DNA of 64,000 bases from Desulfobotulus mexicanus. GTDB lineage: Bacteria > Desulfobacterota > Desulfobacteria > Desulfobacterales > ASO4-4. The position numbers were made by a program, and so were the translations under genes. Shown one piece after another: positions 32,481 to 57,724 of the stretch (positions within the stretch are counted from its first letter, which is position 1; every line of letters begins with the position of its first letter). The notes below the pieces were generated by a model. The model saw only the letters and a list, made by a program, of their open reading frames with translations, was not told where the DNA came from and ran no database searches. Location of the stretch: positions 148,232 through 212,231 of the forward strand of contig NZ_VDMB01000003.1 in NCBI RefSeq assembly GCF_006175995.1. Direction: 5' to 3'.

Positions 32481-32860
32481 GAATTCTCCTCAAAATTTCC
32501 ATGACCACCTGGTCACACATTTTGATTTCTCATACGGCACATCATAAAAACAGGCAAGGAAAAATTCCTTTTTCCTGCCTGCAAACAAGAAAAGGTACTT
32601 TCAAACAATTTCAGATTCAGGAATACGGCACTTTTTTAAAAAACATTTCATCCATGTTTTTGGGACAGTTCAGCTTAAAAGCTTTAACAAAATGAAGGAT
32701 TGCCAATTGATACATATTTTATTTTTTGTTAGTTTAGTCACCAAGGAAAACTATTCATCATATTCAAGTTCACCATACAGCCCTTACTGTCAGGGCATCA
32801 GCAAACAGGCTGAACCTTACGCTCCAGATCCATTTTATGCCCTTTAAAGAGGAAGCAACG
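32481..32860. other. Divergent intergenic region, mqnE / receiver-TPR gene
   Basis: 380 bases, AT-rich in the middle (32690-32760). It must carry promoters for both directions. No open frame with a ribosome binding site and no strong hairpin was found; no clean promoter hexamer pair stands out. Confidence 0.4.
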
Positions 32861-34012
32861 ATGATCGATCTTAAAAAAATGAGCATTCTTATTGTGGATG
32901 ACATGGATAACATGTGCCGTTCCATACGAAGCATGCTCAAAATTCTCGATTATGGCAGCAACTTCCGCCTTGCGGGAAATGGAAAGGAAGCCCTGCAGAT
33001 TCTGCGTCAGTTCTCCGTGGATCTTGCCATTATTGACTGGAACATGCCCGTGATGACAGGAATAGAGCTCCTTGACAACATTCGGGAGAATAAAGAACTA
33101 AGGGATATGCCGGTCATTATGATCACTGCGGAGGCCAACAGCGAAATTGTTGCTGAGGCTGCAGAATCGGATATTGATGCTTATCTGCTCAAACCCATAA
33201 CAGTTCAGGCACTTGGTACAAAAATTGAAAAAGTCATAGAAAAAGCCAACAATCCGCCTGAATCCATAAGACTTCTAAAGGAAGTACGTAACCTGATCGA
33301 AGCCAAAAAATTTGATGAAGCCATTCCCCTCTGCAAAAAAGCCATAGAAGCCGACCCCAGATCTTCCCGGCCCATACGCACCATGGGTGAAATTTTTTTT
33401 AAAAAAGAAGATATAGACCTTGCGGAGCGCTGGTTTGTCAAAGCTGCCCAAATGAACCATCTGGATGTATATTCCTTTCACCATCTGGGGGATATCTATC
33501 TCAAACGCAATGACCTGGACAAAGCCTTCCGTTTTTACGAGAAAGCCATGAAAATCAGCCCCCGCCATGTGGACAGAGCCATAAATTTCGGCAAGGTTCT
33601 TTTACAGAAAGGAAAAATCGACAAAGCCGGAACTGTTTTTGAAAATGCCATACGACTTTCCGGCAATCCAATGGAGTTGAGGGAAGACATCGGTACAACC
33701 TGCCTCAATACAGGAGCCTTCAATGCGGCCATAGGTCAGTTTGAAACCATACACAGGCAATTCCCAAAGCGCATCGATATCATGAAAAAACTGGCCATAG
33801 CCCATGAAAGCACAAGCAATCATCAGGAAGCCCTTTCCTATCTTCTAAAAATTTCAGAAAAAGACCCAGAAGATTTTGATGTCCACCTGCGCCTTGCCCG
33901 TATTTACGTAGGCATGAAACAAACCTTCCGGGCCGAAGAAATACTCCAGAAGCTGCAACGTAAAGATCCTGAAAACAAAGAGGTTCAACGCCTCATTGCC
34001 AAAAACCTCTGA
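32861..34012 (+). CDS. Receiver domain protein with TPR repeats
   Basis: 383 residues from the ATG at 32861 with GAGGAAG upstream. Residues about 5-125 are a CheY-like receiver: ILIVDDMD acidic pocket, phospho-acceptor Asp 59 (IIDWNMP), and Lys in LLKPIT. Residues about 150-380 are about six TPR-type helix pairs (KAFRFYEKAMKISPRHVD is one). There is no DNA-binding output; the protein should act by protein contacts. It is followed 13 bases later by a kinase gene, its likely partner. Confidence 0.88.
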   Translation: MIDLKKMSILIVDDMDNMCRSIRSMLKILDYGSNFRLAGNGKEALQILRQFSVDLAIIDWNMPVMTGIELLDNIRENKELRDMPVIMITAEANSEIVAEAAESDIDAYLLKPITVQALGTKIEKVIEKANNPPESIRLLKEVRNLIEAKKFDEAIPLCKKAIEADPRSSRPIRTMGEIFFKKEDIDLAERWFVKAAQMNHLDVYSFHHLGDIYLKRNDLDKAFRFYEKAMKISPRHVDRAINFGKVLLQKGKIDKAGTVFENAIRLSGNPMELREDIGTTCLNTGAFNAAIGQFETIHRQFPKRIDIMKKLAIAHESTSNHQEALSYLLKISEKDPEDFDVHLRLARIYVGMKQTFRAEEILQKLQRKDPENKEVQRLIAKNL

Positions 34013-34025
34013 TGCGGAGTCTTCC

Positions 34026-35270
34026 ATGGAAAAAGACCAGAACCTTCTGCAAACCCTTTCCAAAATCACAAACATATCAAAAGATGAAACCCTTGATGAT
34101 CATCATAAACTACAAAACCTTCTGCAGACATTACGTGAACTCATCGGAGCCGAAAAGGCCTCCATCATGTTCAAAAGGGGAAACCGCTTTCTGGAAGTGG
34201 TTGCAGCAACCCGCCTTGAAATTATCGGTCTCCGCCAACCCTTAAGCTGTAACAGCCCTTCCTGCTGGGTCATCCGCAATAAAAAACCCCTGTACATGGA
34301 TAAAGACACAAAAAATCCAGGAGTTTCTTTTAAAGGCGGTTATAAAACCGATGCCTTTTTTCTTGCCCCAATTTTCTCAGCAAACAAGGTCATGGGCGTT
34401 CTTTCCATGACAGACAAAGACGGAGACGGCAGTTTCTCCCTCAAAGACAGAGAAACCATACTGCAACTTGCCGGTATTATTATCAGCTCCATTGAAAATA
34501 ACAGCCTGAACGACCGTCTCAAAAAACAAAGACACCAACTGGAGAAAAAAAACAGGCAACTGAAGGAATATGAAAAAATCAGGCAGGAATTTTTTAACCT
34601 TCTGGTGCATGACCTTAAGGCACCCATCGCTGAAATTGTTGCCAATCTGGATATCCTTTCCTACACAACAACGGAGGAGAACCTCTCCTTTGTGGAATCA
34701 GCCCAATCCAGCTGCAACACCATGTTCCGGATGATTTCCAATCTGCTGGACATCACCCGCCTTGAAAACAGAATGCTTAAACTAATTCCTGAGCATCTGG
34801 ATGCGACCGACCTGCTGGAGGAAGCCCTTTCCATGATCCATGGCCAGGCAAGAATGAAACAAATCACCCTGAAAAATGAAACAAAAGAAGCAGCCTCTCC
34901 CTTATTCATTGGAGACAGAGGACTGCTGTTACGGGTATTTCAGAATCTCTTTGCCAATGCCATTCAGTATTCTCCTGAAGGCAGCACCATCCGGACAGGA
35001 TATGAGGTCAGAGAATCAAAAATTCTCTTCTATGTGGACGATGAAGGACCCGGCATTGCACCGGAAGACAGGGATAAAATTTTTGACAAATACATGCAGG
35101 TGGGAAAAAGGGATTATGTAATTCAGGGACACTCCACCGGCCTTGGACTAAACTTCTGCCGCCTTGCCATGCAAGCCCACAAAGGCAATATTTTTATGGA
35201 AAGCAGTCTTTCGGGCGGCAGCAGTTTCCGCTTTACCCTTCCCCTGATACAGGAAGAAAAGCATTTTTAA
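34026..35270 (+). CDS. GAF-domain sensor histidine kinase, soluble
   Basis: 414 residues from the ATG at 34026. No membrane segment. GAF domain about 20-155 (LIGAEKASIMF; APIFSANKVMGVLSMTDKD), a coiled coil, then HisKA with His 195 (LLVHDLKAPIAEI) and HATPase motifs NLFANAIQYSPEG, DDEGPGIA and GLGLNFCR. It is downstream of the receiver-TPR gene and followed by a terminator, so the two form one signalling pair. Signal unknown. Confidence 0.88.
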   Translation: MEKDQNLLQTLSKITNISKDETLDDHHKLQNLLQTLRELIGAEKASIMFKRGNRFLEVVAATRLEIIGLRQPLSCNSPSCWVIRNKKPLYMDKDTKNPGVSFKGGYKTDAFFLAPIFSANKVMGVLSMTDKDGDGSFSLKDRETILQLAGIIISSIENNSLNDRLKKQRHQLEKKNRQLKEYEKIRQEFFNLLVHDLKAPIAEIVANLDILSYTTTEENLSFVESAQSSCNTMFRMISNLLDITRLENRMLKLIPEHLDATDLLEEALSMIHGQARMKQITLKNETKEAASPLFIGDRGLLLRVFQNLFANAIQYSPEGSTIRTGYEVRESKILFYVDDEGPGIAPEDRDKIFDKYMQVGKRDYVIQGHSTGLGLNFCRLAMQAHKGNIFMESSLSGGSSFRFTLPLIQEEKHF

Positions 35271-35404
35271 CCGGCCTGTTTAAACAAAAAAAACTGCAAA
35301 GGCTTGCTTTATTCCAGCTTCCATGATTTGGCTATTCTTCGCATCATTTTCGATGATGTAAATGGTGAGGCAAAACATTGTTCTGCCAAAAGGAAATCTC
35401 TTAA

Positions 35405-35437
35405 AAAAACGCCTGTGGAAATCCGGGCGTTTTTCTT
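35405..35437 (+). terminator. Terminator after the GAF kinase gene
   Basis: AAAAACGCC (35405-35413) pairs with GGCGTTTTT (35426-35434) around a 12-base loop, with Ts following. Confidence 0.75.
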
Positions 35438-35460
35438 ACGTATCTGTCAAGGAGTGACTA

Positions 35461-35868
35461 TTGAGTATGAATATTCAAACCCACCAGAGCATGGACACCC
35501 GACTCTGCGGCGTCCCGGAACGTGTTGAGAATGGAACAGCCCTGCTGACCATGCCAACCCTGGACTGTATGGTTGCTGATGCCAGTGGACTTATCCACGG
35601 AGGATTTCTTTTTGGCCTTGCCGACCATGCCGCCATGCTGGCGGTCAATCATCCAAATGTGGTTTTAGGAGAAAGCACATGCCGTTTTCTGAAACCCGTG
35701 ATTCTGGGAGATGTTGTGCTGGCCGAAGCAAAAATCATCCATAGCAAAGGGAAAAAATACGAGGTGGCTGTTTCCCTTAGAGTATCTTCAAAAATCGTAT
35801 TTTCCGGAAATTTTATCTGCTTTACACCTGAAAAACACGTACTGGCCGGGAACGGCAACAATCAGTAA
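35461..35868 (+). CDS. Hotdog-fold thioesterase
   Basis: About 135 residues. AAGGAG is followed after 6 bases by TTG (35461) and after 12 by ATG (35467), so either may start translation. The PaaI/4HBT-like hotdog core is visible: ASGLIHGGFLFGLADHAAML (the central helix with His-Gly-Gly) near 39-58, then CRFLKPVILGDVVLAEAKI. Such enzymes hydrolyse acyl-CoA thioesters; substrate unknown. A small free-standing gene between two terminators. Confidence 0.82.
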   Translation: MSMNIQTHQSMDTRLCGVPERVENGTALLTMPTLDCMVADASGLIHGGFLFGLADHAAMLAVNHPNVVLGESTCRFLKPVILGDVVLAEAKIIHSKGKKYEVAVSLRVSSKIVFSGNFICFTPEKHVLAGNGNNQ

Positions 35869-35877
35869 GCCTGCATT

Positions 35878-35938
35878 GCTATGTAAAAAGTCTGGTCTGA
35901 TCTGGTTTTATCCACAAAACAGGGACTTTTTACATAGC
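35878..35938. terminator. Bidirectional terminator, perfect 15-bp stem
   Basis: GCTATGTAAAAAGTC (35878-35892) is the exact inverse of GACTTTTTACATAGC (35924-35938) with a 31-base loop. It lies between two convergent gene ends (35868 and 35947). The stem is long and A/T-rich at its centre rather than GC-rich. Confidence 0.6.
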
Positions 35939-35946
35939 CCTTTATT

Positions 35947-37392
35947 TTAACTTTTCCGCTTAACCCTTCGGACAATCTTACGCTTTTTCTTTTTCTTCCG
36001 CTGAAATTCTTCCGGATTCATGCGGGCATCCTGGCTATAGTCACAAGTGGCCCGGGGACACTTCAGACCTTCATTTCCTTCCTTCGTGACGAAAGCCACC
36101 AGAAAAGGATTCGCACAGGTCGGACATGGATAATGAAAAGGCTGGGACCAGCTTATAAAATGGCAACTTGTAAGTGAACAATCATAAAAAACCTTACCCT
36201 TTTCTGTTTTATTAACCTGCAACTTTCCATTTTTACACATGGGGCAGGTAAGAGCAAGGTTGTCTTCAAAGGCAGCAATCCTTGCTTCAATATCATCATC
36301 ACCAAGGATTTCCGGCTCATCATCTTCTTCCTGATCAGATAAGGAAGAAGTCTCAGCGGCCGTTTCAATGGGTTCAGAAACAACCGCTGAAGATGATAGT
36401 ACAGGCGACTCTTCCTCAGGCTCCGGCACTGCAGGTGCTGAAGGAGGCTCTTCCACAACTTCCTGTACTGCCGCTATTGGAGGCGACTCTTCCTCAGGCT
36501 CCGGCACTGCAGGTGCTGAAGGAGGTTCTTCCACAACTTCCTGTACTGCCGCTATTGGAGGCATCTCTTCCTCAGGCTCCGGCACTGCAGGTGCTGAAGG
36601 TTCTTCCACAGGTTCTGCCACCGCAGGAGCTTCAAAGGAATTTATTTCCGCTTCAGACAGTGGGGGCTCCGGCATCTGTTCCGGGATCTCTTTTGCTGAT
36701 TCAACACCAAAAACTTCCCTGATATTCAAATCTTCGCTTTTAAATGCACCCCGCTGACTGCGAAGACGGCTAAGTTTCTGCAAAACATTGCGGTTCCATT
36801 CCGCAGAAGCCGGTTTTTTGGCTTTAGAGACAAAGGTACCCTTCTTCTGGTCTCCCATCCTGTCCTTAGAAAGCTCCGATACCTGCCCTGCAAGAGAGTG
36901 CATTTTCAGTGTCTGAAGAAAAAACCGTTTGGCGTCATGGAGATCCTTGCGATCGGAAACCACTTCATCTATAGTCTGAACCGTATAGGCAACAAAATTC
37001 ATACCCTGCATACCCGGGAATAGGGTATTCACCACCTGCATCATTTTCTGCGCCGTAATCCCGGCCTTCAGCCTTCCGTCTTCGACTTCGGTGACAAGAC
37101 CTGAATCCAGAAGGGGATTCAGACCGGAAAGAATACCGATATCCGTACCAAGGCCTATATCCCGAATATCCACGAGAAAACTTTCCCTGGTATACCGTTC
37201 GGGTGGAGATTCAGAAAACTCATCAATTTCAGCCTCCCGCTCCATAAGCACAACAAGGGAAGCAATGGTGGAAATATTCAGAATCAGGCCGGGAGGCAGA
37301 GCGTCCATATCAACGATTGTATGAATATGATCCATAAGGACTTCATCAAAATGGGCTCGTACAACCGTAAGGGCATCTGTGGAATCAGACAT
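35947..37392 (-). CDS. Protein with PE-rich repeats and C-terminal zinc ribbons
   Basis: 481 residues. The N-terminal 200 residues are a soluble helical region of no known family (ILSGLNPLLDSGLVTEVEDG resembles a winged-helix reader of repressible state, weakly). Residues about 260-345 hold three copies of a 26-residue Pro/Glu repeat. The C-terminus has two topoisomerase-type zinc ribbons: CPMCKNGKLQVN...C and CPTCANPFLV...CPRATC, followed by a lysine/arginine tail. The ribbons and basic tail suggest nucleic-acid contact. First-named member of an unexplained four-gene block. AAGGGA before the ATG. Confidence 0.75.
   Translation of the reverse strand: MSDSTDALTVVRAHFDEVLMDHIHTIVDMDALPPGLILNISTIASLVVLMEREAEIDEFSESPPERYTRESFLVDIRDIGLGTDIGILSGLNPLLDSGLVTEVEDGRLKAGITAQKMMQVVNTLFPGMQGMNFVAYTVQTIDEVVSDRKDLHDAKRFFLQTLKMHSLAGQVSELSKDRMGDQKKGTFVSKAKKPASAEWNRNVLQKLSRLRSQRGAFKSEDLNIREVFGVESAKEIPEQMPEPPLSEAEINSFEAPAVAEPVEEPSAPAVPEPEEEMPPIAAVQEVVEEPPSAPAVPEPEEESPPIAAVQEVVEEPPSAPAVPEPEEESPVLSSSAVVSEPIETAAETSSLSDQEEDDEPEILGDDDIEARIAAFEDNLALTCPMCKNGKLQVNKTEKGKVFYDCSLTSCHFISWSQPFHYPCPTCANPFLVAFVTKEGNEGLKCPRATCDYSQDARMNPEEFQRKKKKKRKIVRRVKRKS
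36407..36620 (-). repeat. Three 78-bp in-frame tandem repeats
   Basis: Units start at 36407, 36485 and 36563; the first two are nearly identical and the third is cut short. They encode the 26-residue Pro/Glu linker repeats (core PPSAPAVPEPEEE and IAAVQEVVEE) of the zinc-ribbon protein. Confidence 0.9.
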
Positions 37393-37442
37393 AAAGAACC
37401 TCGTTCCCTTTAAAAATCCTTAGAAAATAATGACCCGCCTTT

Positions 37443-37883
37443 CTAAGGCATAAGATCTTCCGTATTCACTCCAGAATCAGCTATATCAACCGCCTCATCA
37501 TCCAAAACTTCCGTAGAATTAATTTCTCCAAGCATATCTACAAGTTCTGATGCAACACCACTGCTTCTAGGCAGCTCTTCCATGGCGGCTGCATCCTCTC
37601 CATCGTCAATTTCCTCGTCTCCGGCAGCGGAAAGGTGGATGCACTCTCCCTTACGATCAAAAACAACATCCAGGGTAATCTTAACATCAAAGGAAAGTTT
37701 ATAAGCTACCTTTCCTTCATGTACCACCATATCCCCTTCCCGGAAATTGACATCATCCTGCAAACCGATTTTATGCTTTTGGCGTAACAGCTGTTCAATG
37801 GCCGACCAGTCCAGTTCTGCAATAATGGTATCCATCAACTCCCGCTCACTGCTTTCTATTACACTGGTATCGCTGACTTTCAC
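37443..37883 (-). CDS. Small acidic protein of unknown function
   Basis: 146 residues from a GTG at 37883 with AGGAG 7 bases upstream. Residues 1-90 look like a compact alpha/beta domain (LDWSAIEQLLRQKHKIGL; AYKLSFDVKITLDVVFDRKG); the last 55 residues are acidic and disordered-looking. No recognised family. It sits between the ParA-like and zinc-ribbon genes on the same strand and shares their acidic-linker style, so it is probably part of the same system. Confidence 0.65.
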   Translation of the reverse strand: MKVSDTSVIESSERELMDTIIAELDWSAIEQLLRQKHKIGLQDDVNFREGDMVVHEGKVAYKLSFDVKITLDVVFDRKGECIHLSAAGDEEIDDGEDAAAMEELPRSSGVASELVDMLGEINSTEVLDDEAVDIADSGVNTEDLMP

Positions 37884-37991
37884 AGGCCTGCTCCTTTTTT
37901 GATATCGGTTTCAAAAAAAACTCTCTGCCCCGCATAAGCCTAGCCGACAGGCATTCCGCAACGCCCTTCCCCGTACAGAATCCACATTTTA

Positions 37992-38699
37992 TCAAATAAT
38001 GCAAGAAGATATCCACCTGGAAAGCATTTGGTAAGCAGAGGCCGCAGGGGATAAAAGATCTTCACAAAAAACAGGTCTTCCCATGGACTCAGCTCTTTTA
38101 ACACAAAAATCTTCGGGAATGGGAACAGGAGCCATCTTTGCCCTGAACAGTTTATGGGCCGGCCCGGAAAAGATAAGGGATAAAGCCTGATCCGGCCTGG
38201 CACACACCGGAATCATACCCATAAGAGGCAGAGGCTCCTGCCTTTCCCTGCGTACCCACTCCAGAAGCCCGAGACTGGGTCCCAGACGATCAAAAGCCTC
38301 CCCCTCCAGACCAAGGGGAATAAAAACACCACTGGAAAGCAAGAGGGCCGTCCGTGTCTCTGCGGAAAGTGCAGAGGGTGTATCCCAGAAAACAACGGTT
38401 TCCGGTGCTAAGACATCAAGCACAGCTGTCAGCTTTTCTCTTATCTTTACAACTGTCAAGGTTTCCCCTGCTGTCAAGGTATCAGCTTTCATGTAAAACA
38501 AAGCAGGTATCTGATAATCTTCCAGAATTCCGGAATGAAAAGGAAAATATTTTTCTTCCTCAGAAAAAACGAGATTATCTTCTGAAAAAACCACCAGTGC
38601 TGGTCTTCCTGAAAGGGCCATGGCTGCAGCAAGATTCCTTACCGTTGCAGTTTTACCCGTATCTCTGTTATGGTTAAGAAAACATAAAATAGAATGCAT
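37992..38699 (-). CDS. ParA/MinD-like ATPase with degenerate Walker A
   Basis: 235 residues from the ATG at 38699 (a GTG at 38714 is also in frame; neither has a clear ribosome binding site). SILCFLNHNRDTGKTATVRN at residues 2-21 aligns with the KGGVGKTT loop, but the signature lysine and glycines of the ParA family are replaced, leaving a plain DTGKT. VVFWDTPSALS near 100 fits the Walker B/DTPP strand. If it binds ATP, it may not form the usual ATP sandwich dimer. Only 66 bases separate it from the divergent FGE-fold gene. Confidence 0.7.
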   Translation of the reverse strand: MHSILCFLNHNRDTGKTATVRNLAAAMALSGRPALVVFSEDNLVFSEEEKYFPFHSGILEDYQIPALFYMKADTLTAGETLTVVKIREKLTAVLDVLAPETVVFWDTPSALSAETRTALLLSSGVFIPLGLEGEAFDRLGPSLGLLEWVRRERQEPLPLMGMIPVCARPDQALSLIFSGPAHKLFRAKMAPVPIPEDFCVKRAESMGRPVFCEDLLSPAASAYQMLSRWISSCII

Positions 38700-38780
38700 T
38701 GTTAAAGATAGCACAGAATCCCGTTTTGTAAAAACACCAAAATTCAGTCACCTGCTTCTTTTCTTCTTTCCGGGGGGCCC

Positions 38781-41171
38781 ATGAACCTGAATCTTACCCT
38801 GAAAGGCATTGATCTGGCCTTTGACAATCTGCCTTATCGCAATCCCAATGCGCCAAAGTACCGCCTTATACAGGCCATACGTAAACATTATAGCACTGAG
38901 GAAGACCTTACACGCATCCATGGAATCCCCACAGAAAACCTTATTGCAGAAATATGGGAGACAGGAGAAGATGCACAGGCTATCCGAAGCCGCATAAAAA
39001 ATTTTGCAAGCCTGCGTACCGCCATCAATGCCGACCTTAAAAAAATGATGGAGGAAGATAAAAACCCGGAAGGTGTTATCATAGGAAAAAACAATACCTT
39101 TGAAATGGATAACAGCATGCGGGAAAAGCTCCTGCAGACCGTATCAGGCATGGTTTCCGGAGACAACGGCCAGATGTCCATCTCACGTCTTTATGAACTA
39201 ATCAACATTGTGAAGGATTTTCTGGACCGTCGGGAAAAGGGCGTGGATGATCCCGATGGCAAGGAACTACAGGAGCTTAAAAATCTGCTGGAAAGCATTG
39301 ATGCCCCCGGAACAGAAACTCCTGAACCAGACACGGGCGCTGGCGAAGAAGACAGTGGAGCAGAAGACGAATCTGAACCGGAAACCATAGAGATGGACGA
39401 AGACGAAGAGCTGCAGGACACTGAAGAAATCGAAGATGACATCGAAACCATAGAGATAGACGATGATGAAGAGCTACAGGACACTGAAGAAATCGAAGAT
39501 GACATCGAAACCATAGAGATAGACGATGATGAAGAGCTGCAGGACGCTGAAGAAATCGATGAGGACATCGAAACCATAGAACTGGATGAAGACGAAGAGC
39601 TGCAGGACGCTGAAGAAATAGATGAAGAAATCGAAACAATAGAGATAGACGATGATGAAGAGCTGCAGGACGCTGAAGAAATAGATGAGGACATCGAAAC
39701 CATAGAGCTCGATGATGACGAAGAGCTGCAGGACGCTGAAGAAATCGATGAAGACATCGAAACCATAGAGATGGACGAAGACGAAGAACTGCAGGACGCT
39801 GAAGAAATAGATGAGGACATCGAAACCATAGAACTGAACGATGATGAAGAGCTGCAGGACGCTGAAGAAATCGATGAAGACACTGAAACCATAGAGCTCG
39901 ATGATGACGAAGAGCTGCAGGACGCTGAAGAAATCGATGAAGACACTGAAACCATAGAGATGGACGAAGACGAAGAGCTGCAGGACGCTGAAGAAATCGA
40001 TGAAGACACTGAAACCATAGAGCTCGATGATGACGAAGAGCCGGGAGATTCAGAAGGTGGCGATCTGGTGGAGCTGGGTGAGGATGAAGAACTCATGGAT
40101 GAAGATGATGAAATTCCTGAGATAGAAGACAATGATTCTGCCCCGCTGATGGATCTGCTGGATGATGATGAGGTGGAAGAAGTTGAGGTGGATGGCGAAC
40201 TGGACCCGGATCTTTTTGAAGAGCTTGTGGAACCCGAAGAAGAAGCCCCTGAAGAAGAGGAAAAGGAAGAGGCACCGGATCTGGGACTGAGCTTTGGCAG
40301 TGACGAGGATTTCAGCGAGTATGATCCCGACGACATGGAAAAAAACCGCCTTTTATCCGAACGCTTTGACGGCTATCTGGGTGCCATGGAACGTTTTTAC
40401 AACCAGTATCCTCTAGTGGATCAGGGCAGCTTCCGGGTAGGCTCTCCCAACCCAGGAAAACTGGAACGCAGGGAAACGAAAATTCAGCTTAAGGATTTTT
40501 ATATCGGTCGTTTCCCCGTAACCAATGCCCTGTTTGAGGTCTTTGTGGAACGAACAGGCTACCGTACCACAGCGGAAAAGATGGGCTATGGTACGGTTTT
40601 CCAGCCCCGCTTCCGTAAAGTCAAAGACCCCGATACCGGAGAAATGAAAGCCCAATGGGTTGCAGAAACAGGAAGCAAGCGCATTGATGGAGCTGCATGG
40701 TATGCACCGGAAGGGCCCGGATCCAGCATACACTTAAAGCGCAACCACCCTGTGGTACAGATCAGTATCGAAGATGCCCGACGCTTTGCCGCATGGATAG
40801 GAAAAAGGCTTCCCACGGAAGATGAATGGGAGGCGGCTGCCCGCACAGCAAAGGGCCTGCCCTATCCATGGGGAGAAACATGGAATCCTGAGGCTTCCAA
40901 TGTGGAAACCACAGGCATTGGGGAAACCACAGCCGTGGATACCTTTACGAAAGGTCAGAACGATTTTTCCCTGATGGATCTTACGGGCAATGTACTGGAA
41001 TGGACACAAAGCCCCATGGAAGGTCTAAGCCAGAATGTCTCCCAGATTCCTTTTTTCATCGCCAAGGGGGGCAGTTTCATTACGGCAGGAGAACCTACCC
41101 TCTGGGCCCGCTATCCCCTCCGGCCGGACTTTACCGCCAACATTCTGGGATTCCGCTGCCTTGTGGACTAA
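38781..41171 (+). CDS. FGE-fold (SUMF1-like) protein with acidic tandem repeats
   Basis: 796 residues. Residues 1-175 are an unknown helical domain (KYRLIQAIRKHYSTEEDLTR). Residues 201 to about 430 are ten full and one diverged copy of an extremely acidic 21-residue repeat (ETIEMDEDEELQDAEEIDED). More acidic linker follows, then a formylglycine-generating-enzyme-like domain at about 540-796: FYIGRFPVTNALFEVFV, RLPTEDEWEAAAR, DLTGNVLEWT and the end GFRCLVD. The catalytic cysteine pair of true FGEs is not evident, as in the many non-catalytic members. Divergent from the ParA-like gene. No signal peptide. Confidence 0.85.
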   Translation: MNLNLTLKGIDLAFDNLPYRNPNAPKYRLIQAIRKHYSTEEDLTRIHGIPTENLIAEIWETGEDAQAIRSRIKNFASLRTAINADLKKMMEEDKNPEGVIIGKNNTFEMDNSMREKLLQTVSGMVSGDNGQMSISRLYELINIVKDFLDRREKGVDDPDGKELQELKNLLESIDAPGTETPEPDTGAGEEDSGAEDESEPETIEMDEDEELQDTEEIEDDIETIEIDDDEELQDTEEIEDDIETIEIDDDEELQDAEEIDEDIETIELDEDEELQDAEEIDEEIETIEIDDDEELQDAEEIDEDIETIELDDDEELQDAEEIDEDIETIEMDEDEELQDAEEIDEDIETIELNDDEELQDAEEIDEDTETIELDDDEELQDAEEIDEDTETIEMDEDEELQDAEEIDEDTETIELDDDEEPGDSEGGDLVELGEDEELMDEDDEIPEIEDNDSAPLMDLLDDDEVEEVEVDGELDPDLFEELVEPEEEAPEEEEKEEAPDLGLSFGSDEDFSEYDPDDMEKNRLLSERFDGYLGAMERFYNQYPLVDQGSFRVGSPNPGKLERRETKIQLKDFYIGRFPVTNALFEVFVERTGYRTTAEKMGYGTVFQPRFRKVKDPDTGEMKAQWVAETGSKRIDGAAWYAPEGPGSSIHLKRNHPVVQISIEDARRFAAWIGKRLPTEDEWEAAARTAKGLPYPWGETWNPEASNVETTGIGETTAVDTFTKGQNDFSLMDLTGNVLEWTQSPMEGLSQNVSQIPFFIAKGGSFITAGEPTLWARYPLRPDFTANILGFRCLVD
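39381..40050 (+). repeat. 63-bp in-frame minisatellite (ten to eleven units)
   Basis: Units begin at 39381 and recur exactly every 63 bases; the unit starting at 40011 keeps only its first half. Each starts GAAACCATAGA. Copies differ mostly at the residue after ETIE (M, I or L) and by D/E exchange. Confidence 0.95.
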
Positions 41172-41175
41172 AAAA

Positions 41176-41196
41176 GGGCAGGCCCATGGCCTGCCC
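41176..41196. terminator. Bidirectional terminator between FGE-fold gene and hcp
   Basis: GGGCAGGCC-CAT-GGCCTGCCC, a perfect 9-bp stem with a 3-base loop. On the minus strand it is followed by TTTTT, so it is well formed for hcp. Confidence 0.85.
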
Positions 41197-57626: not shown

Positions 57627-57724
57627 GGAAGTGCGCAGCTTACTGGTGAGGCTCCCGGACTTCAAATCCGGTGTGGGGCGCTAAAACCGTCCCGGGTGGG
57701 TTCGATTCCCATGCACTTCCGCCA
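57627..57724 (+). tRNA. selC: tRNA-Sec (selenocysteine), anticodon TCA
   Basis: 98 bases including CCA. Eight-base-pair acceptor GGAAGTGC/GCACTTCC, anticodon stem CCGGA/TCCGG around CTTCAAA with TCA at 57662-57664, and a long variable arm (GTGTGGGGCGC...CCCGG). These features are diagnostic for SelC. Selenoprotein synthesis is therefore encoded, though selA, selB and selD are not in the window. It marks the left border of an integrated island. Confidence 0.97.

Follow-up and report, generated by a model that had tools for sequence, protein, structure and literature searches.

For ParA-type ATPases, whose Walker A motifs have been tabulated (the table of PMC9178275 served for our comparison), described positioning systems offer several points of reference. 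In the sections of PMC8262871 used here, type 1 McdA proteins lack the signature lysine and their partner genes lie directly downstream of parA, while the passage of PMC10241942 that we drew on describes ParA partners with a positively charged, disordered N terminus. Here, we analyse a window of 64,000 nucleotides (the whole stretch under study) from Desulfobotulus mexicanus (contig NZ_VDMB01000003.1), in which four adjacent genes encode a ParA-like ATPase, a small acidic protein, a zinc-ribbon protein and a protein with the fold of formylglycine-generating enzymes (FGE). This block is apparently an undescribed conserved multi-gene locus of Desulfobacterota, and its newness lies in a core pair, FGE plus zinc-ribbon protein. 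Neither a description of the block nor a counterpart of the core pair was found in the open-licence PMC literature, within which the first-pass annotation's statement that no known system matches is borne out. The four open reading frames (ORFs), recovered as first annotated, are the following:

35947-37392, minus strand: zinc-ribbon protein gene, 481 aa
37443-37883, minus strand: small acidic protein gene, 146 aa
37992-38714, minus strand: ParA-like gene, as ORF, 240 aa
38781-41171, plus strand: FGE protein gene, 796 aa

The three minus-strand genes (ParA-like, small acidic, zinc-ribbon) are divergent from the plus-strand FGE gene. The source genome is that of a Desulfobotulus or a very close relative; D. 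alkaliphilus (L042) has the same block, with a ParA identity of 76% and an FGE gene cut by the contig end.

The first relatives served to build four profiles: A1 for the N-terminal domain of the FGE protein, A2 for the small protein, A3 for the N-terminal domain of the zinc-ribbon protein and A4 for ParA. The surroundings of profile matches were retrieved and scored in all frames. A1 matches occur in 67 of the 291 genomes sampled from the order (12 of these gave rows to A1) and in 17 of the 395 sampled from the phylum. All 17 (two of which, G000 and G022, had contributed to the profiles) likewise score at least 44 bits against the zinc-ribbon profile, a zinc-ribbon match without A1 match being seen in one further phylum genome (G093). 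At 45 of 80 FGE loci (L105, L042 and L087 being excluded as duplicate or split copies), the full set stands in the same divergent order, i.e., FGE on one side and ParA, small acidic and zinc-ribbon genes, in this succession, on the other. The remaining loci carry FGE and zinc-ribbon genes only (19 loci: 13 divergent, 5 in the same direction, 1 convergent), lack ParA alone (6) or the zinc-ribbon gene alone (2), or are reduced to FGE plus small protein (1) or FGE by itself (7). The zinc-ribbon gene is thus present at 70 of 80 loci. Among the ten others, the contig extends for fewer than 500 bases on the divergent side of L117, L152 and L153, only a fragment is available at L163, L156 breaks off within the small gene, and L091 belongs to a genome (G286) with a dead topoisomerase on another contig (L107).

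When neighbours are clustered, the FGE, zinc-ribbon, small and ParA genes recur in 25, 24, 20 and 16 families, respectively (f18 and f18b treated as one); the FGE figure stems partly from selection, most loci having been picked by FGE match, which does not apply to the other three. The next commonest neighbours are a histidine kinase (14 families, in a single-linkage cluster that may mix families), an XerD-like recombinase (9) and a thioesterase (8). The small gene shares its stretch with an FGE gene in 54 of 57 cases, the exceptions being L088 (FGE on contig L087 of the same genome) as well as L096 and L097, whose stretches hold no core gene. The small gene follows parA at 50 of 50 loci, while seven FGE loci have the small gene without parA, the gap from FGE to small gene being too short for ParA. 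Retention is therefore nearly nested, in that ParA is always accompanied by the small protein, and the latter almost always by the FGE gene. This pattern indicates that the conserved core is the FGE protein with the zinc-ribbon protein, ParA and the small protein being optional, and the synteny that the four genes are one conserved unit. The first-pass annotation had grouped them and called for a gene-neighbourhood search, a lack of co-occurrence being what would speak against the grouping; the search, once run, found co-occurrence, and the grouping holds. In the window alone, the weak or missing family assignments of three of the four proteins could suggest unrelated genes brought together by chance, but the block is more than chance because it is conserved in many genomes, with order and orientation maintained across many families; synteny refutes this explanation, which we regard as next to impossible. 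A mobile element was likewise considered and rejected: the synteny is conserved with other chromosomal genes, and searches of one plasmid collection with the FGE N-terminal domain and of one phage collection with the small protein gave no match.

The first-pass annotation described the product of the leftmost gene as a zinc-ribbon protein with a basic tail and Pro/Glu repeats. These features are confirmed, but its identity has to be corrected to that of a type IA topoisomerase (TopA) derivative. Its parts are:

36877-37371, minus strand: topoisomerase-derived N-terminal domain, residues 8-172 (A3 profile mapping)
36403-36600, minus strand: Pro/Glu repeat linker (78-bp repeat x 2.5, 97% matches)
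36040-36246, minus strand: two C4 zinc ribbons with CPxC pairs, limits approximate (alignment of residues ~379-455 to TopA-sized ORFs of relatives)
35950-36005, minus strand: basic C-terminal tail ending KKKKKRKIVRRVKRKS (net charge of the last 25 residues)

By itself, the window protein gives weak matches to TIGR01051 topA (E 0.0014, residues 53-179) and PF01131 (E 0.016, residues 53-150), while the A3 profile retrieves TopA structures from the PDB (best 2gai, E 2.1e-8; 6pcm, E 4.3e-8) and has matches in 261 of 395 phylum genomes (E <= 0.001), most of them, among the matches listed, in TopA-sized ORFs. In G200, G352 and G312, the gene beside FGE encodes a larger topoisomerase-like protein (Topoisom_bac E 3.2e-21, 4.5e-21 and 3e-24, respectively), which also matches Toprim and Zn_ribbon_Top1, some of these matches falling below the curated cut-off. 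On the dead relative of G352, A3 aligns in two pieces (31 and 88 bits) 259 codons apart, and on that of G286 also in two (28 and 42 bits). With five genuine TopAs (L100-L104), the score is 18-25 bits for the second piece and just -1.4 to 4 bits for the first, which nonetheless lies in the matching position; the two are separated by 264-277 residues. Because the pieces map that far apart on larger relatives, some 260-277 residues including the catalytic tyrosine are missing from the window protein, as is the Toprim domain, for which a family library scan gave no match in this protein. Going by TopA structures, the A3 pieces would correspond to domain IV, and domains II and III to the missing gate.

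The motifs TYMRTDS, GRVQS, HEAIRP and G[IV]GRPST are lacking in all four larger relatives (G200, G352, G312 and the G286 fragment) and present in all five aligned genuine TopAs; moreover, the L093 protein shows a gap at the catalytic motif when aligned to a solved TopA. In a tree from which L100, L104, L108 (TopA) and L107 were dropped for too few columns, the zinc-ribbon family stands apart from the three TopA rows used as outgroup at 100/100. This tree is silent on the order of events, of which the simplest would lead from an active topoisomerase through a dead but large form to a stripped remnant. Altogether, these comparisons identify the zinc-ribbon protein as a stripped type IA topoisomerase with two zinc ribbons and a basic tail, and this descent therefore points to a nucleic-acid-binding ancestry. 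The last 25 residues carry a net charge of at least +6 in 74 of 76 tails (genome G074 being entered twice, as L084 and L105), the two non-basic ones belonging to an HDOD fusion (L048) and to the L107 fragment; the first 30 residues of the window protein have a net charge of -6. Two unusual forms were also encountered: a second copy in G015 (L048:7909-9606), in which the topoisomerase-derived domain is fused to HDOD (E 1.7e-20) and devoid of zinc ribbons, and two tandem homologues in G040 (L060:1353-3769), one without ribbons, the other with an extra acidic tract.

Such a descent could also mean that the core acts on transcription or supercoiling: the remnant would compete with or guide TopA or RNA polymerase via its zinc ribbons (a type of module that contacts RNA polymerase), ParA would be merely a recruited accessory, and the acidic FGE protein would be a DNA mimic or a chaperone keeping the remnant off DNA. 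The retention of ribbons and basic tail is in line with this explanation, as are the 19 loci with neither ParA nor small gene and the genuine TopA with catalytic motif in all five block genomes aligned, i.e., G000 (the window's own), G022, G041, G184 and G312. Yet it leaves unexplained that, in 16 families, the two core genes flank parA and the small gene, and we hold it to be unlikely.

The second core protein, on the plus strand, has three parts:

38781-39290, plus strand: N-terminal domain (alignment A1, 12 sequences)
39381-40041, plus strand: acidic 21-residue repeat tract (63-bp tandem repeat x 10.5, 89% matches)
40416-41162, plus strand: FGE/SUMF domain, catalytic cysteine pair absent (solved-structure match)

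The match to FGE-sulfatase (PF03781, E 1.2e-46, residues 546-794) and the repeat agree with the first-pass description of a divergent FGE-fold protein with a long acidic repeat tract. Among the matches listed, the best solved structure is SUMF2 (1y4j, E 8.1e-35), ahead of the FGEs. The loop that bears two cysteines in FGE has none in the window protein, and no CxxxxC pair occurs in the 30 of 31 printed C-terminal segments of relatives that reach this loop (L046 is truncated), although cysteines in other spacing occur close to the loop in L092, L094 and L128. Hence, the domain is probably non-enzymatic. Searches of Pfam, NCBIfam and the PDB with the N-terminal domain yielded chance-level matches only, and its predicted structure (two-row alignment, window plus L042) is unusable (pLDDT 44). 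Between the two domains, the window protein has 334 residues with 57% Asp/Glu and a net charge of -189; across relatives, the tract has a median of 252 residues and 51% Asp/Glu (minimum 29%), with net charges from -21 to -262, as measured in 47 of 81 FGE ORFs, the others being cut or without anchor. What is conserved of the acidic tract is its character, not its sequence, and both of the oppositely charged low-complexity tracts singled out in the first pass are kept as characters (at least 29% Asp/Glu in 47 ORFs; basic tail in 74 of 76). As both tract and tail are present where ParA is absent (e.g., L082, L083, L092, L094), they do not serve ParA alone.

The ParA-like protein is best delimited as follows:

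37992-38699, minus strand: ParA-like ATPase that has decayed in this genus (from Walker motifs and the A4 alignment)

The ATG at 38699 (235 aa), where aligned orthologues begin, is the better start, the GTG at 38714 being also possible. In the window protein, the Walker A motif reads NHNRDTGKT instead of the deviant KGGxGK[ST], so that the signature lysine is lost, and the switch I/A' segment reads VFSEDNLV instead of DxDPQ, with loss of the switch I aspartate, whereas most of the 50 orthologues have a VDCDPQGN-like switch I. The Walker B aspartate (VVFWDTPS) is kept, as is the GKT of the P-loop in Desulfobotulus. The lysine loss noted in the first-pass annotation is thus real for the window but not intrinsic to the protein: 33 of 50 block-type ParAs have the lysine and 17 lack it, two of them with arginine instead (L061, where a ParA stands beside a receptor-like gene and no other block gene, was excluded). 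A ParA family defined by the absence of this lysine is accordingly rejected. In a quick tree with long branches, the split into lysine-bearing and lysine-less forms needs eight changes, and the supported branches force at least four for the lysine-less label. The alignments indicate that this is an ordinary ParA-type ATPase in most relatives examined, which has decayed in several lineages, including Desulfobotulus, and is absent from others. Five canonical and two decayed members score below every NCBIfam cut-off among those listed, including MinD, ParA_partition and BcsQ, and therefore fall in no named subfamily there. It is an extra ParA, since the chromosomal parB sits elsewhere in the genome (G000:C24:38890), beside a ParA-like match at 38273.

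The location of parB bears on the idea of a chromosome or nucleoid organiser, in which ParA, a DNA-binding remnant and an XerD-like tyrosine recombinase would act on the terminus or on replication intermediates. The DNA-related ancestry of the components suits it, and the XerD-like gene, so named by eye, neighbours the block at 28 loci in nine families; this family is, however, missing from the neighbours identified in the window and at most loci and, with the chromosomal parB elsewhere, we consider such a role quite improbable.

The small protein comprises a conserved domain of about 88 residues, an acidic linker and a short C-terminal motif, the latter recognised in 36 of 57 sequences; its alignment A2 (11 sequences) has a mean column identity of 68%. 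Pfam and other family and PDB searches returned chance-level matches only. The fold predicted for the domain (two-row alignment, window plus L042; pLDDT 63) has two helices followed by four strands, and Foldseek found no match for the model in the PDB at E <= 0.001. A C-terminal motif carried by a variable acidic linker fits an adaptor role and, because retention is nearly nested, the small protein would link ParA to the core.

From these elements, we tentatively favour a scaffold of acidic and basic parts bound to nucleic acid, for which ParA and the small protein would serve as an optional positioning module; we would not call this reading probable. The FGE protein, with its non-catalytic domain and its long acidic, probably disordered tract, would pair with the zinc-ribbon protein, of which the basic tail would touch the acidic tract, while the dead, gate-less topoisomerase remnant would bind nucleic acid through its topoisomerase-derived domain and its ribbons. 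Together, they would make up a nucleic-acid-associated scaffold or condensate, which the small protein would couple to ParA, and ParA would space it along the nucleoid as McdA does carboxysomes. In Desulfobotulus, canonical ParA cycling has probably ceased, and the protein may be either a static nucleotide-binding partner or on its way to loss, as in ParA-less relatives. Sequence comparison shows the unit, the topoisomerase origin and the decay of ParA; binding, condensate and positioning are what we infer. Similarly, the core is observed to be conserved and its two proteins presumably interact, while the accessory module is observed to be co-retained and its function is conjectured. The fuller picture of a bacterial body made from two pseudoenzymes, i.e., a stripped dead topoisomerase and a dead FGE scaffold forming a cytosolic acidic/basic condensate to which a ParA module was added for nucleoid placement, is more doubtful and on balance somewhat unlikely.

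Several observations weigh against the scaffold with its positioning module. Many loci have no ParA, and at L096 and L097 the available stretch holds parA and the small gene but neither core gene, so that the modules also occur apart. At L131, L154, L155 and L161, the FGE gene has 3-9.6 kb on its divergent side and no zinc-ribbon match above threshold, an absence that is either real or due to lack of detection. The C-terminal motif of the small protein is not matched by the pattern in 21 of 57 sequences (one cut by a contig end), and the first 30 residues of this protein average a net charge of -5 over 49 measured sequences (range -7 to +5; window protein, -6). Such an acidic N terminus, shared by the window's zinc-ribbon protein (-6), is at odds with the ParA partners described in the passage cited above (PMC10241942). 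The topoisomerase-derived domain is so diverged that nucleic-acid binding itself is conjectural. Finally, with respect to cargo, 47 of the 67 FGE-positive genomes have no match to PhaC, the polyhydroxyalkanoate (PHA) synthase (PF07167, E <= 1e-30).

This last figure leads to the rejection of PHA granules as a general cargo. Positioning of PHA storage granules or other inclusions had been hinted at by the 4HBT thioesterase next door, and PHA synthase is over-represented in block genomes, being present in 20 of the 67 FGE-positive genomes of the order sample and in 12 of its 224 others (Fisher p 3.6e-7, a value inflated by the relatedness of the genomes, as kinship was not corrected). In this comparison, the FGE and PhaC counts are taken as the same draw of 291 genomes (same settings and size), and G048, which has a zinc-ribbon gene and no FGE match, was entered as a genome without the block. 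At most, granules would be a cargo in some lineages, and we deem this explanation of the block very improbable.

The non-coding features of the block, for which no strand is assigned, are:

38700-38780: intergenic region between the divergent genes, 81 bp, presumed promoter region by position
35878-35938: inverted repeat bordering the minus-strand genes on their downstream side (arms 35878-35892/35924-35938)
41176-41196: terminator-like hairpin after the FGE gene (arms 41176-41184/41188-41196)

Promoter-like sites are not enriched in the block (5 against a mean of 5.6 in shuffles). Of the bidirectional terminators proposed in the first pass for both edges, the one at 41176-41196 is a good hairpin (perfect 9-nt stem, 3-nt loop, T run on the minus strand), whereas that at 35878-35938 (perfect 15-nt stem, 31-nt loop) is weakly terminator-like, owing to its long loop. 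The claim that all four proteins lack a signal peptide stands, as judged by eye.

Genes for a TPR response regulator, a GAF histidine kinase and a 4HBT thioesterase adjoin the block (window 32837-35868) and are found beside it in 7, 14 and 8 families, respectively. Elsewhere, family f77 (L082, L083, L084, L098, L099) has the zinc-ribbon and FGE genes as a direct pair with a small gene upstream, which matches PilZ in L082 (E 6.7e-8). Genes that by eye resemble FliD and other flagellar filament genes lie near a pair of FGE and dead topoisomerase genes in two families (L092, L095), and two families have, close to the FGE gene, one that by eye resembles a CdaA-type diadenylate cyclase (L057:12935-14374, L091:1460-2899). 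The window also holds a selenocysteine tRNA (57627-57724).

The locus offers two series of forms. One runs from active topoisomerase through a larger dead form to a stripped remnant, and would allow one to test if parts of a topoisomerase can take on a new use as scaffolds. The other, within one synteny, runs from canonical ParA through decayed ParA to no ParA, and would allow a test of what a ParA system loses with the signature lysine.

Compared with known systems, the locus shares with ParABS a ParA family ATPase, but no ParB family was recognised among the four proteins, and the parB of this genome lies at G000:C24. With TopA, it shares a homologous domain and C4 zinc ribbons, and has larger counterparts in G200, G352, G312 and, as a fragment, G286; unlike TopA, the window protein has neither Toprim nor gate region, and the larger relatives are devoid of the catalytic tyrosine motif. 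With SUMF2/pFGE and the formylglycine-generating enzymes, it shares the FGE fold, SUMF2 being the closest solved match among those listed, whereas the window protein has no catalytic cysteines and, by eye, no signal peptide, and its FGE domain is fused to an acidic tract and to an N-terminal domain of no known family. As for McdAB, in the parts of PMC8262871 used here, the likeness extends to a ParA-type ATPase in which the signature lysine can be missing (as in type 1 McdA), to a partner gene immediately downstream of parA (here in 50 of 50 loci) and to charged, low-complexity partners. Within the same parts, the differences are that none of the four genes is a carboxysome gene, that the small protein ends in TEDLMP where McdB has an invariant C-terminal tryptophan (an aromatic residue in McdB-like proteins), that its N terminus is acidic and not positively charged, and that two further conserved genes are present while ParA is dispensable. 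On this footing, membership in McdAB fails on the N terminus of the partner, its C-terminal residue and the ATPase motifs of the window protein; McdAB, with its disordered partner encoded downstream, is nonetheless the closest working model, and a McdAB-like working mode is possible for those relatives that have a canonical ParA.

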